Source: Candidatus Heimdallarchaeota archaeon (GTDB lineage Archaea; Asgardarchaeota; Heimdallarchaeia; Heimdallarchaeales; Heimdallarchaeaceae). Taken from it: a stretch of 64,000 nt of DNA. A program made the position numbers and the translations under genes. Below, piece by piece: positions 14,530-41,946 of this stretch. Location: assembly GCA_016840095.1 (NCBI GenBank), contig JAEOSZ010000040.1, positions 1 to 64,000 of the forward strand. The letters are read 5' to 3'. Positions within the stretch are counted from its first letter, which is position 1. Every line of letters starts with the position of its first letter. The notes under the pieces were generated by a model, which saw only the letters and a program-made list of their open reading frames with translations, had not been told where the DNA came from and made no database searches.

Positions 14530-15072
14530 TTGATTATGCACGTAGCAAGATGTAAAAGATGTGGTAGCAGGGAGATTGATTCAAAGTATCTAAATACACA
14601 ACTATATATTGGTACAGCTTCACCATTAGGGAAGATTAGATATTATTATTGCTCTGAATACTGTTATACAATTGAAAATGCAGAAAAGAATCTAACTTAC
14701 AGTATTTTCTTGTTTTTTATTGGTTTAATTATTATAGCTTTTTGGATTTTTTATCTGAATTTGGCTATTAAAGGTTTCAAACATAGAAAAGCATTAGGAA
14801 ATTGGAAAGAAAAGAAATCTGAATATTGCTACTTTTGTCAAGCTGAAATAACTGAAATTCCAGAAGGTAAAGGAGTATGTATGAGCTGTGGAGAGATTAT
14901 ACACTATTGTGATATCTGTCAAGATCATATCTTCCTTGGTGATACCATTCTTCAACTTGAACCCTGTGGTCATATCTTCCATAAGAATGAATTACTAGAT
15001 TGGATTGATAGTAACAATGTTTGTCCTAAATGTGCTATAGAAGTAGAATTTGTAGATGTTAACCCTGATTAA
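14530..15072 (+). CDS. Transmembrane protein with cytosolic RING-H2-like zinc finger
   Basis: CDIC-x13-CGHIFHKNELLDWIDSNNVCPKC; additional CxxC pairs and a central hydrophobic segment. Confidence 0.65.
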   Translation: MIMHVARCKRCGSREIDSKYLNTQLYIGTASPLGKIRYYYCSEYCYTIENAEKNLTYSIFLFFIGLIIIAFWIFYLNLAIKGFKHRKALGNWKEKKSEYCYFCQAEITEIPEGKGVCMSCGEIIHYCDICQDHIFLGDTILQLEPCGHIFHKNELLDWIDSNNVCPKCAIEVEFVDVNPD

Positions 15073-32914: not shown

Positions 32915-34951
32915 TTGAGATCAGATAATTTTGATTTACCAAATGAATTTTCTAGATTCGAGAAATTCATTAAGTCTGATTTTGAACAATTTTACCCAGT
33001 TTTTCAAAAATACCAAGATATGGAATATAGTTTCTTTCAGTCTATAGTTTATGCTTCAGATGATCTTGCAAATACTCCTAAAATTCCTGAATTTACTAGG
33101 ATAAACTATACCCAGATTGCGATGATAGGTTACTTCCTTCTCTCACAGTTCAAGAAAGTGTTAACCTTTCCCATACCTGAAGATAACTTCGAGGCTATGT
33201 ATTTCCGAATGAAATCTGCGAAATTTACAGGAGATAGAGAAGTTGTGTCAGCTCTTCTAGCCAATACAATTGCATTAATGGTTGAATTGAAGAAATCAGA
33301 CCCATCAATGCACAAGGCTTTCTCGGTAATTTTATCAATGGAAATAGCATCAATGAACTCTGATGTTCAGACAGTTCAACAATATTCTAAGGTTTTTAGA
33401 ACCAATCTTTTCGACACTGTTCTGATTGAAAAATACCCTCTTCTTACTCTCCAAGTAGTTAGTGATCTAGCTTACAGAGAATTTCGAACAGGAGATGAAA
33501 CATATTCAGGTTGGTTAGAAATTTACAAAGAATTAGCTGAAGCTTTGAATATGGACACAAAGAGACTTGATTGTTATACTATGCTTGGAGGACTATATAG
33601 ATTCAAAGGTTATCTAGAAGAAGCTTCTGAATATTATAGTAAAGCAATTGTAATTGCAGAAAAAATTGGCAATAAAGAATTCATTGCATCACTAATAGCT
33701 AATATGGCAGATTTAGAACATACTAGAGGTAATTTAGAAAAAGCCCTTTCATTATGTTTAGAAGCTCTTAAGGATCCAGAAATCTCACAATCTAAACCAA
33801 CTATTTACGTTAATATTGCTGAAGTACTAATCAAGAAAGAAGAGTTCAAAGAAGCATTAGAATATTTAGATAAAGCTCAGAAATTAACCAATAGAAATTC
33901 ACCTATTGTCAATTTGCTCTATGGATATGCGCTTACAAAAATCCCAGGAAAAGGCAATCTTCAGGAAGGTATAAAGTATCTAGAAAAGGGTGGTAATCTT
34001 AGCGAAAAATCAAAAAATCAAAGGTGGTTAACTACTTACTACTATTACATGGGAAGAATATATCTAGATACTTACGATCTTTCATCTTCAATTGAATCTT
34101 TTGAAAAATGTTATGAAATGGCAATCATAAGTGAATTTCAGTACGTTGTTTTATCACAATTATATTTAGCAGAAGCTTATTTACATAGATATAAGATCTC
34201 ACAGTCAGAAGGTGACTTAACTAACTCAGAGCGGTATTTGGCAAATGTTATTTCTATTTGTCAAGAACAAGATTTACCTATCTTAGCGGAGGTCCTCTAC
34301 ATTAGTGGACAATTACTTGTTGCACTAAACGAATTAGTTGATGCTGAGTTTGTTTTTGATCAAGCAATGGATTTAGCAGAGAAAAATGTTAACGCTCCAT
34401 TAGTGAAGAAGTGTGAAAATAGTATCTTAATGATTCAAAGTAATGAAATTGAGAAACCAATGGTAATCATTCATGAAATAACTGATGTCATTAATGATCT
34501 TGCTAAGCATTCTTACATCAAGAAAACTAAACGAATGCCTCAAGTTTATTTCCTAAACATCTTTACTGATGAAGGATCATATATTTATTCTTATTACTTC
34601 AACAGACAATTTCCAATAAATGATGTATTGATTTCAGGTTTAATTTCTGCAATAAGAACAATGTCTTCAGAAGTTTTTGGAAGCGGACTAAGGGGAATAG
34701 ATTTCGAAGGTAAAAAGTTGCTCGTGGAGAGTTTTGGTAGATTTTGTGGAATTCTTGCTTGTGATAGAGACAGTTTCAATGCGCGAACAAAATTATACAA
34801 TTATGTTCAGAGATTCAACCAAAAATTTGAAGATGTATACCAAAACATTGCTGCTGGACAGACATTGGATCAACTTCAAAAGGAAGCCGACTTATTAATT
34901 GAAATTATTTTTGAGAAATCTGATAGAGCATTTGTTGCACCTCCAGAATAG
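32915..34951 (+). CDS. TPR-repeat protein with C-terminal longin/roadblock-like domain
   Basis: TPR-like 'ASEYYSKAIVIAEKIGNKEFIASLIANMADLEHTRGNLEKAL...'; C-terminal 'VYFLNIFTDEGSYIYSYYFN...LRGIDFEGKKLLVESFGRFCGILACDRD'. Confidence 0.72.
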   Translation: MRSDNFDLPNEFSRFEKFIKSDFEQFYPVFQKYQDMEYSFFQSIVYASDDLANTPKIPEFTRINYTQIAMIGYFLLSQFKKVLTFPIPEDNFEAMYFRMKSAKFTGDREVVSALLANTIALMVELKKSDPSMHKAFSVILSMEIASMNSDVQTVQQYSKVFRTNLFDTVLIEKYPLLTLQVVSDLAYREFRTGDETYSGWLEIYKELAEALNMDTKRLDCYTMLGGLYRFKGYLEEASEYYSKAIVIAEKIGNKEFIASLIANMADLEHTRGNLEKALSLCLEALKDPEISQSKPTIYVNIAEVLIKKEEFKEALEYLDKAQKLTNRNSPIVNLLYGYALTKIPGKGNLQEGIKYLEKGGNLSEKSKNQRWLTTYYYYMGRIYLDTYDLSSSIESFEKCYEMAIISEFQYVVLSQLYLAEAYLHRYKISQSEGDLTNSERYLANVISICQEQDLPILAEVLYISGQLLVALNELVDAEFVFDQAMDLAEKNVNAPLVKKCENSILMIQSNEIEKPMVIIHEITDVINDLAKHSYIKKTKRMPQVYFLNIFTDEGSYIYSYYFNRQFPINDVLISGLISAIRTMSSEVFGSGLRGIDFEGKKLLVESFGRFCGILACDRDSFNARTKLYNYVQRFNQKFEDVYQNIAAGQTLDQLQKEADLLIEIIFEKSDRAFVAPPE

Positions 34952-38218: not shown

Positions 38219-38632
38219 TTGATGTCAGTTATAAAATTCTTTGATGACATGGAAGTAGATAACTTCCTATGGTTATCAGCAGCATTCGTAATCTTATTCG
38301 CTTCTGGTTTTGTCATAGGATTCATTAGAGACTATTTATGGATGGTAATTCTAGCAGCTGTAGTAGCAGGATTATTCCTTATTTGGTGTTCAATGTATGT
38401 GATTATCAACAGAAAAGAATGGAAAAAGGAAAAGGAAATTCTAGTAGAATTACCAAGCTTTCCTGAACCTGATTTCTGTGACATGTGCAGTAAAGAATTG
38501 GAGGGAGGAGAAAGAAGAACTGATGGAGAGTTCTTGATAATCATATGCCCTCATTGTAAAGCTGAAAATATTGTATCAAGTGAAGCTAAGATACAAGAAG
38601 TAGAGAAAACAATAGAGGGAGAAGAAGAGTAA
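38219..38632 (+). CDS. Small two-TM protein with C-terminal zinc ribbon
   Basis: Two hydrophobic helices then CDMCSKELEGGERRTDGEFLIIICPHC. Confidence 0.65.
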   Translation: MMSVIKFFDDMEVDNFLWLSAAFVILFASGFVIGFIRDYLWMVILAAVVAGLFLIWCSMYVIINRKEWKKEKEILVELPSFPEPDFCDMCSKELEGGERRTDGEFLIIICPHCKAENIVSSEAKIQEVEKTIEGEEE

Positions 38633-38634
38633 AT

Positions 38635-39879
38635 ATGCCCAGAGAATTTCCAATAGTTAAACCTATGATTATAACTTATGCAGTTTCTATGCTAGTTCTT
38701 GTACTAACAGCAGGATATCATCATACTCAAGGATTTATTGAGATGTTTGCTGTTATTTTCATAACTCCAGTGTGTATAATAGCTCTAGTAGGTTTTGAAT
38801 GGACTTTCAAACCTATTAGCAGATGGTTTAAGAGGAATCGTTACAATTTTGACTATAGTATATTAGAATTAGTTTGGGTAATCATACTACAAGCAGCTTT
38901 TTGTTTTGGTTTACTGCTTTCCTGGAGCAATTTCTTTTCTATAGGTAGAATAGAAGTTTTAGTTTTTAGTCTTACTACTATATTTCCTTCATCTTTCTTT
39001 ATTTTCTATCTTATATCTTGGATAAGGTATAGAAGGAAAGATGTTGTTACCAGTGATTTAGATGTAATTATCAAGAAAACTTCCTGGTTAGAATCAAAAA
39101 AGAAAATCGAAACTGAATATGATTTCGAAAGCAAAATCTTAATTCCGGGGTTAACTTCTGAGAATATTATTGATCAAGATAAACTTAGTATCACATACGA
39201 AGTTCCCTCCAAGCACAGGTATTATGATGTATTTACTAAACTCAAAATTGATTATATAGATTATCTGAAAGCTTTACGTCTTACTATGAAATTAAAGTCA
39301 GATTCTTTGCTTTCACTTAGTATTAAAAGAAGAGACACTGCATTTTCACATTTAAAAGAGGAACTAGTGATTCCTCGTTTATCTAATGTATATGTACTAG
39401 ATAGTTCAACTCCAGAGGTGTGGGGTAATCTCTTTAATGATACTTTATTTAGACAAAGCTTACTCATGCTCAGACCACATTTGGATCAATTTTCATTGAA
39501 AGGAGAATATGTTGAAGTTGTAATTTATTCAGAGAAAGCAATTCTAAAAGTTCTTGATTGGGTGATGGATCTTAATCCTTCAATGGAAAAGTTAACTGGA
39601 GAACTAGAAGTAACAAGAGCAGAAAAAATGCTTTGTTATAGTTGTCAAGATCCGTTTGACCCATTTGAAGAAATTTGTGGTAAATGCGGAAGTCCTAGAC
39701 CTAGATGCATTATTTGCTTCCAAGATCTCAAACCTGAAGTTGATATTGATGTAGTCATCTTACCTTGCTGTAAGATTTATGCCCACAAAGATCATATGAC
39801 TCTTTGGTTTACTCGAAAAACAAATTGTCCTAATTGTCATGCTGATCTTAGCAGATGGGCAAATGAAATAAGAATATAA
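38635..39879 (+). CDS. Membrane protein with zinc ribbon + RING-like finger (paralog 1)
   Basis: About 4 TMs; CYSC-x10-CGKCGSPRPRCIICFQDL...PCCKIYAHKDHMTLWFTRKTNCPNC. Confidence 0.72.
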   Translation: MPREFPIVKPMIITYAVSMLVLVLTAGYHHTQGFIEMFAVIFITPVCIIALVGFEWTFKPISRWFKRNRYNFDYSILELVWVIILQAAFCFGLLLSWSNFFSIGRIEVLVFSLTTIFPSSFFIFYLISWIRYRRKDVVTSDLDVIIKKTSWLESKKKIETEYDFESKILIPGLTSENIIDQDKLSITYEVPSKHRYYDVFTKLKIDYIDYLKALRLTMKLKSDSLLSLSIKRRDTAFSHLKEELVIPRLSNVYVLDSSTPEVWGNLFNDTLFRQSLLMLRPHLDQFSLKGEYVEVVIYSEKAILKVLDWVMDLNPSMEKLTGELEVTRAEKMLCYSCQDPFDPFEEICGKCGSPRPRCIICFQDLKPEVDIDVVILPCCKIYAHKDHMTLWFTRKTNCPNCHADLSRWANEIRI

Positions 39880-39920
39880 AAAAAGGTGTATGTACATATA
39901 AGATTCAAGCAGAAAAGGAG

Positions 39921-40862
39921 TTGAATGTGGTGGTTGATGTTACAGATTTTCTATATTTGATTTTTTTAGTTGTTATTGCTTTTATTGCAATTCCTATAAG
40001 TAGATCGAGAAAGAAAAAAAGAGAACAAAGAGCAAGACAACATCAAACGTATAAAAGCTATACTCAACCTCAGCCAGGATATGCTGCTTATCAACAAAAA
40101 AAAGCGATAGATTTTGACAGTATTTTGCGTAATCTTAGGATTACTGATACTTCTTCTGTCGATAGAGCTCTTAACGGAATTCAATTAGTACTTCCAAAAG
40201 ACAATCCCTATTCATTATTTTCAGATATTAAAATCATTCAACATAGAAATAATGCCATCAAAATTTATGCAACTTTATCTAGAGTTATTCCTTCTGATTT
40301 GGAAGTGAGAAATAAGCAGAAAGTTTTTTCTTCGGGCGTAAATGAAATACGAGTACCTCAATTAGCTAGTACATACAATATCTCAACAGAAAAAGGAGAA
40401 ATGTGGGCAAGCATACTATCTATCGATAAGTCTGTAGATCACTTGTTATCCTTACAGTATGAACTAGAATATTTCTACCTAAGAGAAGATTATTTTGAAT
40501 CAGTAGTTTATTCTGAAGCTGGTGTTTTCAGTGTGCTCAATTTTATCAAATTTCTACATTTCAATATCAAGAATCTTTTTGTTGATGTGAAAGATTATGA
40601 CGTTGAGCAACTAAAATGTTACAATTGTGAAGATCCATTTGATCCATTGGAAGAAATATGCGATAAATGCGGAGCACCACGACCTCGTTGCTTGATCTGT
40701 TATCAAGATTTGAAACCTTCAGAAAAACAAGAAGTAGTTCAGGTACCTTGTTGTAGTATTTATACTCACAAAGACCATATGTTAGCTTGGTTAAAGAAAA
40801 ATAAAAAATGTCCAAATTGTCACCAAGATCTAAGTCATTGGGCAAATAAGCTAATGCTGTAA
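39921..40862 (+). CDS. Membrane-anchored zinc ribbon + RING-like finger protein (paralog 2)
   Basis: One N-terminal TM; CYNC-x10-CDKCGAPRPRCLICYQDL...PCCSIYTHKDHMLAWLKKNKKCPNC. Confidence 0.72.
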   Translation: MNVVVDVTDFLYLIFLVVIAFIAIPISRSRKKKREQRARQHQTYKSYTQPQPGYAAYQQKKAIDFDSILRNLRITDTSSVDRALNGIQLVLPKDNPYSLFSDIKIIQHRNNAIKIYATLSRVIPSDLEVRNKQKVFSSGVNEIRVPQLASTYNISTEKGEMWASILSIDKSVDHLLSLQYELEYFYLREDYFESVVYSEAGVFSVLNFIKFLHFNIKNLFVDVKDYDVEQLKCYNCEDPFDPLEEICDKCGAPRPRCLICYQDLKPSEKQEVVQVPCCSIYTHKDHMLAWLKKNKKCPNCHQDLSHWANKLML

Positions 40863-41001
40863 AAGCAAAATCATCTAAGAGAAATCTATTTGTTAAACAA
40901 TTTTTAAAATATGGTTTATCTCTTAAAGTAGAACTTATAATAACTTACAAAGCTTGTTAGGATTTATTAAGATAGTATTTTAAAGCTGGAAATACATATT
41001 T

Positions 41002-41946
41002 TTGGTGCAGATGAATTGGTTAGGGATATTTGCTTTAATTTTATGTTCAATATTGTTATTAGTTTTTATTGTGTTAATTCGGTTGAGGTTATTGGATAGA
41101 AGTTATGAAAAATCTCTTAGAAGTCGAAATGAATCAGAATTTTTGGGAATCGAAAAACAGACTTCAAAATCTCTAAAACCAATTATGAATCAACTTAGAA
41201 AATTGGAATTCTTTAATGTAATAATTAATAAGAACACTATAAGAATAGAAGTTGAGGAACATCATAAATTTTCCATTTTTAGGAGAATAAGAATTAAAAA
41301 GAATTTTCTAGGTAGTATAGATATTAATGCTACACTAAGTAAGAGTTTTCCTGATCGGTTAATAATTTTTGCTCGAGGTTACCCAATGTATCATGATCTT
41401 TCAAAATTTACTATAGGTGGATTAGAAAAACTATATGATTTTTATTCAAATGATCCATCTTTCTGGGAAGTGATTCTGAATAATACTGTTAGTCAAACAT
41501 GTTTGATGAATCTTGGTTTAAACATGAAGCAATTATACATAACAGAAGACATGATTGAAACAAGTTTAGTGAAAAAGACAGATTTTGAAAATTTTGCTAA
41601 ACTGATAATAAGTTTAGAAGTAAAAATACTAACTTCTCACAAGGTTTTTGAAGAGACCGTAATAGAAGATTTGGTTTGTTATTCCTGTGGAAATCCGTTT
41701 GATCCTTTGGAGGAAGTTTGTGAAGAGTGTGGAGCTCCAAGACCAAGATGTATAATTTGTTATCAGAAGCTAGACACGCTTGAAAAAGATATTGTAGAAC
41801 TAGCATGTTGTAACATTTATGCACACAAAGAACATCTGATTCAATGGTTAAATACTAGACCAAAATGTCCAAATTGCCAGAAAAACATTCAAAAGTGGTT
41901 TAACGAGTTCATTCGATTTGAAGATCTCAAACAACTTTCAATCTAG
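41002..41946 (+). CDS. Membrane-anchored zinc ribbon + RING-like finger protein (paralog 3)
   Basis: One N-terminal TM; CYSC-x10-CEECGAPRPRCIICYQKL...ACCNIYAHKEHLIQWLNTRPKCPNC. Confidence 0.72.
   Translation: MVQMNWLGIFALILCSILLLVFIVLIRLRLLDRSYEKSLRSRNESEFLGIEKQTSKSLKPIMNQLRKLEFFNVIINKNTIRIEVEEHHKFSIFRRIRIKKNFLGSIDINATLSKSFPDRLIIFARGYPMYHDLSKFTIGGLEKLYDFYSNDPSFWEVILNNTVSQTCLMNLGLNMKQLYITEDMIETSLVKKTDFENFAKLIISLEVKILTSHKVFEETVIEDLVCYSCGNPFDPLEEVCEECGAPRPRCIICYQKLDTLEKDIVELACCNIYAHKEHLIQWLNTRPKCPNCQKNIQKWFNEFIRFEDLKQLSI

Follow-up and report, generated by a model that had tools for sequence, protein, structure and literature searches.

Three consecutive genes of a Candidatus Heimdallarchaeota archaeon encode membrane-anchored proteins that end in closely spaced zinc ligands, raising the question of whether they are ubiquitin ligases (E3s), assembly factors or simply structural zinc proteins. 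The genes, here named P1, P2 and P3, lie downstream of a small gene, S, within the first 64,000 nucleotides of contig JAEOSZ010000040.1 (the window). An initial annotation of the DNA had described three same-strand paralogs preceded by a zinc protein with two transmembrane (TM) helices, and all four open reading frames (ORFs) were recovered on the plus strand where it had placed them (Table 1). The analysis described here leads us to read P1-P3 as RING E3-like proteins that are tethered to the membrane and act on membrane proteins, a reading based on sequence and predicted structure to which a probability of about 0.5 is assigned.

The three proteins were 26-33% identical in pairwise alignments across the whole cytosolic part, and the alignment bore out the proposed common order of TM helix or helices, middle domain, zinc ribbon and RING. 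Conservation was evaluated with 21 P-family proteins encoded in the window or at eleven related loci. These loci were obtained by scanning named genomes; ten are titled Heimdallarchaeota and the eleventh Asgard group archaeon. The four cysteines of the zinc ribbon and all eight RING ligands, spaced C-x2-C-x16-C-C-x4-H-x2-H-x10-C-x2-C, were invariant in 21 of 21 proteins. Equally invariant were the positions expected to contact a ubiquitin-conjugating enzyme (E2), namely Ile or Val two residues after the first ligand, the Trp, and the Pro of CPNC (I259, W290 and P298 in P2). Since ribbon cysteines, RING ligands, Trp and Pro are all without exception, the ligand pattern is not the product of chance. 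Full-length P2 passed the cut-off of the Pfam family zf-RING_2 (PF13639) whereas P1 and P3 (26.6 bits) fell just under it; in the genome search all three exceeded it. Prok-RING_1 (PF14446) was tried and rejected, as P2 scored 8.6 bits and its C-terminus alone 15.7 bits against a cut-off of 29.1. The P-family profile matched the eukaryotic RING E3s ARK2C, Arkadia and RNF165 in the PDB at about 1e-7 (best 9e-8). An AlphaFold2 (AF2) model of full-length P2, with a mean predicted local distance difference test score (pLDDT) of 79.9 and a predicted template modelling score (pTM) of 0.57, was superimposed by Foldseek on RNF165 at 1.3-2.1 Å over ~50 columns, the model containing no zinc. The C-terminus of P1-P3 is a predicted RING by profile and by predicted fold, in agreement with the initial annotation and not with the unrelated zinc-ribbon folds that it had considered as the alternative. 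It differs from RING-H2 by the Cys-Cys pair at ligand positions 3-4.

The ribbon had been described as a separate element; instead, it proved to be half of a larger module. A ribbon-RING profile matched 163 of 228 Asgard genomes, representing 46 of 62 genera, with up to 25 copies per genome, some matches covering the RING half only. A profile free of P sequences was constructed by aligning 25 tandem modules, all taken from genera other than that of the window; by sequence reading, the module there follows winged-helix arrays, HEAT-like repeats, propeller-like repeats with a TM helix, or a helicase. Its matches in the PDB, continuous over both halves, were to WDR19 (1.2e-7), MIOS (2.9e-7), a Leishmania subunit of intraflagellar transport complex A (IFT-A; 4.8e-7), WDR24 (1.6e-6), WDR59 (1.1e-5) and IFT122 (1.7e-5). 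Among the best 60 matches, RCHY1 (1.2e-4) alone spanned both halves besides GATOR2 and IFT-A subunits and their orthologues. Because the RING half by itself is matched as strongly, or more so, by RING-only E3s, the specific signal resides in the ribbon half and the fixed spacing. With a profile ending before the last ligands, MIOS, WDR24 and WDR59 stood near the top of the PDB list, and the MIOS and WDR24 alignments agreed ligand for ligand with the Asgard module; the P-based profile gave a weaker version of the same result (WDR24 2e-4, MIOS 4e-4). As judged by sequence, ribbon and RING are one pan-Asgard unit homologous to the C-terminal modules of GATOR2 and IFT-A. Thus MIOS, WDR24 and WDR59 of GATOR2 (SEA in yeast) and WDR19 and IFT122 of IFT-A share with the P proteins a C-terminal tandem zinc ribbon and RING with matching ligands, the GATOR2 pattern being C-x2-C...C-x2-C-x4-H-x2-H-x3-W, whereas the P proteins have adjacent third and fourth ligands and a canonical CPNC end. 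These subunits are built of beta-propellers and alpha-solenoids and have neither TM helices nor a CCDC47-like domain; conversely, neither Pfam nor the AF2 model revealed a propeller and solenoid in P1-P3, leaving the module alone in common.

The middle domain shared by P1-P3 (~163 aa) had been proposed as an undescribed domain. It indeed has no Pfam annotation and is confined to one genus, but its predicted fold is not new, resembling those of CCDC47 and TtfA. The Pfam CCDC47 family (PF07946) cut-off was not reached by any of 27 middle domains, and the lone match among them (E 0.0058) was dismissed as too weak on its own. The P2 middle domain was modelled by AF2 with a pLDDT of 91.9 and a pTM of 0.87, and its best Foldseek match was chain 4 of PDB 7tm3 (E 7e-5, probability 1.00, TM-score 0.56 on the query, root-mean-square deviation 5.5 Å), followed by TtfA (1.6e-4), the next match having an E value of 0.17. 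Chain 4 is CCDC47, the human sequence of which agrees over all 301 residues with PDB 6w6l and 7tm3. The same genome also encodes a free-standing 302-aa protein (L120; G000:C25:27929-28834, minus strand) with an N-terminal TM helix, a globular part and a charged tail. Relatives were found in 30 of 119 Asgard genomes (L121-L149), the close ones with the charged tail, and 11 of 16 aligned members matched PF07946 (best 1.1e-9). Alignment of the middle domain to this family by hhalign gave a score of 39.0; none of 100 column shuffles exceeded 21.6, the reversed family scored 12.3, and unrelated alignments reached 10-12. Direct comparisons were negative: sequence searches of the PDB with the middle domain gave nothing meaningful, hhalign found no match to the single human CCDC47 sequence, and the Asgard CCDC47 alignment recovered designed coiled coils and weak ribosomal matches from the PDB instead of CCDC47 and reached 8% probability against the human sequence. 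The link between middle domain and CCDC47 therefore rests on the fold and the intermediate Asgard family through which alone sequence similarity was detectable, and the assignment of that family rests on Pfam matches and architecture. The middle domain is read as a divergent CCDC47-like domain that lies below the Pfam cut-off and has moderate TM-scores.

CCDC47, a component of the PAT complex, belongs to the multipass translocon, associates with the ribosome and Sec61, and places a basic coiled-coil tail at the ribosome tunnel exit. As in the P proteins, a TM helix precedes a globular cytosolic domain, for which the predicted folds agree. CCDC47 has in addition a lumenal N-terminal region; its C-terminal basic coiled coil is absent from the P proteins, which have the ribbon-RING in its place. 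TtfA, the mycobacterial MmpL3 partner, has a similar fold, but it is a bacterial lipid-transport protein with no RING and is 7% identical to the P middle domain. The middle domain also occurs without a RING, in a gene (L053:6470-7318, minus strand) adjoining a RING-bearing P paralog (L053:7267-8532, minus strand; contig C22), and a 199-aa ORF with this domain is also present in some other genomes.

The initial annotation had made its proposal depend on the presence of ubiquitin-pathway genes, and the genome encodes ubiquitin-like proteins, an activating enzyme (E1), two E2s, Rpn11 and the endosomal sorting complex required for transport (ESCRT). Three strong ThiF matches and four UQ_con matches were obtained; two of the latter are E2s with a Cys in the catalytic region and two are without it. 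One of the two lacking the Cys (L049:8700-10109, minus strand) has Pfam matches to an E2 variant, the Vps23 core and VPS28, a fused ESCRT-I. Both E2s, encoded at L048:6866-7432 and L021:1405-1920, retain YP[FY]KPP and [ST]PA, which from UbcH5 we take to be the usual RING-contact loops. One cluster, identified with Pfam, comprises an E2, Rpn11/JAB, a multi-TM RING protein (L048:8204-9316), a ubiquitin-like protein and an E1; a second (L049) comprises ESCRT genes, an E1-like protein and a ubiquitin-like protein. The ubiquitin-like protein at L048:10947-11303 (plus strand) ends in STAG and not Gly-Gly, and that at L049:11334-11570 ends in KGGL. The multi-TM RING resembles the P proteins in being a membrane RING of the C-x2-C-x4-H type, although with neither CCDC47-like domain nor zinc ribbon.

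Across the 228 Asgard genomes, 155 had both ribbon-RING module and E2, 8 the module only, 9 an E2 only and 56 neither, i.e. 17 discordant genomes (Fisher 9e-35, the counts ignoring kinship of genomes); several of the 8 module-only genomes are incomplete assemblies. When the block G180-G226, which lacks both, was omitted, the counts were 155, 8, 9 and 9 (Fisher 1.7e-6, kinship likewise uncorrected). Within families, f25 has one genome with both and one with neither, and f23 has one with both, one with E2 only and four with neither. For the ribbon-RING module as a class, the co-occurrence speaks for a connection with ubiquitin conjugation.

As E3-like proteins, the P proteins would be anchored by the N-terminal helix or helices with the remainder in the cytosol, a topology predicted for P2 and P3 since basic residues follow the TM helix (positive-inside rule). 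The CCDC47-like domain would lie against the membrane and, as suggested by its fold, bind clients that are probably membrane proteins or their insertion machinery. The zinc ribbon-RING would recruit a charged E2 of the genome's ubiquitin-like pathway and promote transfer to the client, which may then enter ESCRT sorting or be delivered to the proteasome; the tandem paralogs would differ in the clients that they serve. The closest precedent is srfp from the ubiquitin operon of Caldiarchaeum (C. subterraneum), an active E3 that has an extra Cys and in which ligands 3 and 4 are shifted by two residues; its activity is abolished or impaired by the mutations I30Q and W58A and impaired by R69A, at the linchpin (PMC5654768). 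The P RING is likewise off-register in a genome with archaeal E1 and E2, and the Ile, Trp and linchpin positions have matching spacing (I30 with I259 and W58 with W290, equated by residue spacing and not by alignment). The P proteins add the membrane anchor, ribbon and CCDC47-like domain.

Several results weigh against ligase activity. The linchpin position directly after the last Cys of the RING (H301 in P2) is occupied by His in 17 of the 21 P-family proteins, by Leu in three and by Gln in one, and never by Arg or Lys, whereas operon-encoded srfp needs Arg69 for full activity. An Arg/Lys linchpin is not universal among RING E3s; nevertheless, because the P proteins lack it, they are not classified as established E3s. 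The E1, E2 and ubiquitin-like genes lie on contigs C159, C118 and C49 and the array on another, so that the proximity raised by the initial annotation was not found: none of these genes is on the array's contig. The co-occurrence with E2 concerns the module generally and not the P family, and the genomes are phylogenetically non-independent. Finally, the homologous C-terminal RINGs of yeast SEA are required for complex assembly, and thus the ribbon-RING module need not be catalytic (PMC8534245).

The last point leads to the main rival, in which the ribbon-RING would serve complex assembly, as it does in GATOR2/SEA, and P1, P2 and P3 pair via their C-termini into a non-ligating membrane scaffold. 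We consider this a serious possibility, if a less probable one. It accommodates the end-to-end homology to the GATOR2 and IFT-A modules, the loss of partners by SEA subunits without the RING (PMC8534245), the missing linchpin, and the presence of one module in all tandem paralogs, which suits hetero-oligomers. A pure assembly role does not, however, predict that module and E2 genes go together in Asgard genomes, nor does it sit well with the invariant E2-contact residues and canonical CPxC of the P family. Moreover, six of the ten related loci covering the site carry P2 as the sole P gene of the array, although these genomes encode further family members elsewhere. The E3-like reading is placed ahead because of the E2 co-occurrence and the invariant E2-contact residues, against which stand the loss of the linchpin and the assembly role in SEA.

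It is unlikely that the P proteins are instead accessories of membrane-protein insertion, with the CCDC47-like domain working beside the translocon and the zinc module binding the ribosome or stabilising the protein. The best structural match to a multipass-translocon factor, the free-standing Asgard CCDC47 homologues and the middle-domain gene without RING would all fit, but the P family has no basic coiled-coil tail, a reading of the flanking ORFs revealed no recognisable translocon genes nearby, and the invariant RING surface is left unexplained. A structural zinc-ribbon family with chance resemblance to RING is already disfavoured and very improbable: zinc ribbons abound in the genome, short Cys-rich matches can mislead, and the top PDB match of one module profile was a designed zinc-finger protein with several sub-threshold repeats, but P2 passes the curated zf-RING_2 cut-off, the predicted fold matches RNF165, and the eight-ligand spacing is invariant.

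The genes of the array follow one another with gaps of 2, 41 and 139 nt, a spacing compatible with co-transcription without proving it. Numbers of TM helices in Table 1 were derived by hydropathy, and the probable starts of S and P2 from orthologues that begin some codons after the listed ORFs. P2 is retained at 11 of 11 related loci, P1 at five and a third copy at three; S adjoins P2 at ten, the contig of the remaining one (L038) stopping inside P1 with S off the contig. At L041, P1 is upstream of S. The neighbourhood is conserved as well, with a tetratricopeptide repeat (TPR) protein and threonine-synthase-like and luciferase-like genes upstream and methyltransferases downstream (all but the TPR protein named by sequence reading). 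The TPR protein (window 32915-34951, plus strand; 678 aa, Pfam) has a further C-terminal domain and is upstream of the array in loci reaching that far. In a tree of P1-P3, the window P3 did not group with the third copies of related loci; branches were long and the duplications were not dated from it. The expectation of a lineage-specific family was upheld: within the window's genus, a profile search detected the middle domain in 20 of 21 genomes, against 0 of 207 other Asgard genomes. The case for S as a dedicated partner was weakened. Its orthologues are 64-90% identical in relatives, but it occupies the same site in two sister genera with no P gene beside it; an obligate partnership is therefore rejected and adjacency is weak evidence of any. 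Most simply, S was already at this site before the P genes appeared there in this genus.

Other proteins with these zinc domains were also observed. A further membrane RING protein is encoded in the window (14530-15072, plus strand), with an N-terminal Cys cluster, a TM helix, a ribbon and a RING (zf-RING_2 37.0 bits); similar proteins are on C49 (L001) and C18 (L013). Helicase-like proteins L007 (G000:C49:12301) and L113 (G008) have a RING or ribbon-RING, C-terminal in one and N-terminal in the other, and a ribbon-RING match (L111; G177:C7:443687-443914) lies within a 3558-aa open frame.

Table 1. Genes and domains of the array in the window.
Feature	Positions	Strand	Description
S	38219..38632	+	137 aa; small protein with two TM helices and C-terminal CxxC...CxxC zinc knuckle; probable start ATG 38222
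P1	38635..39879	+	414 aa; four TM helices, CCDC47-like middle domain, zinc ribbon-RING
P1 middle domain, CCDC47-like	39118..39606	+	profile match
P1 zinc ribbon-RING module	39616..39873	+	profile match; zf-RING_2 24.8 bits; His at linchpin position
P2	39921..40862	+	313 aa; one TM helix, basic stretch, middle domain, zinc ribbon-RING; probable start near 39930
P2 TM helix, residues 8-26	39942..39998	+	hydropathy; SRSRKKKR directly after
P2 middle domain, residues 62-224, CCDC47/TtfA-like predicted fold	40104..40592	+	AF2, Foldseek, hhalign to Asgard CCDC47 family
P2 zinc ribbon, C233-x2-C236-x10-C247-x2-C250	40617..40670	+	conserved ligands
P2 RING, C257...C300	40689..40820	+	zf-RING_2 29.2 bits (cut-off 27.3)
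P3	41002..41946	+	314 aa; one TM helix, divergent middle domain, zinc ribbon-RING; Gln at linchpin position
P3 middle domain, CCDC47-like	41167..41649	+	profile match
P3 zinc ribbon-RING module	41662..41910	+	profile match

RING proteins and ubiquitin operons in Asgards (PMC5654768) and the Asgard link between ubiquitin and ESCRT (PMC9192718) were already known. A literature search, the coverage of which mostly excluded subscription papers, returned no paper linking Asgards with GATOR2 or with CCDC47, and in the literature searched the connections of the tandem ribbon-RING with GATOR2 and of the middle domain with CCDC47 appear new. E3 activity of P1-P3 is plausible, and as judged from sequence and models they are likely ubiquitin ligases for membrane proteins. 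A more far-reaching and rather doubtful proposal is that the Asgard ribbon-RING is the direct ancestor of the GATOR2 and IFT-A modules, linked to E2 before its assembly role in eukaryotes, and is fused here to a CCDC47-like domain as a prokaryotic ligase for membrane proteins resembling those of endoplasmic-reticulum-associated degradation. To our knowledge, the origin and ligase role of the C-terminal ribbon-RINGs of GATOR2 and IFT-A are unsettled. A pan-Asgard tandem module that tracks E2 genes would provide a prokaryotic comparison for this ligase-or-scaffold question, in small soluble domains. The ribbon-RING, otherwise known from eukaryotic nutrient-sensing (GATOR2) and ciliary (IFT-A) complexes, is here joined to a domain resembling a membrane-protein chaperone, and this CCDC47-like domain, together with the Asgard CCDC47 homologues, is relevant to how the eukaryotic multipass translocon arose.

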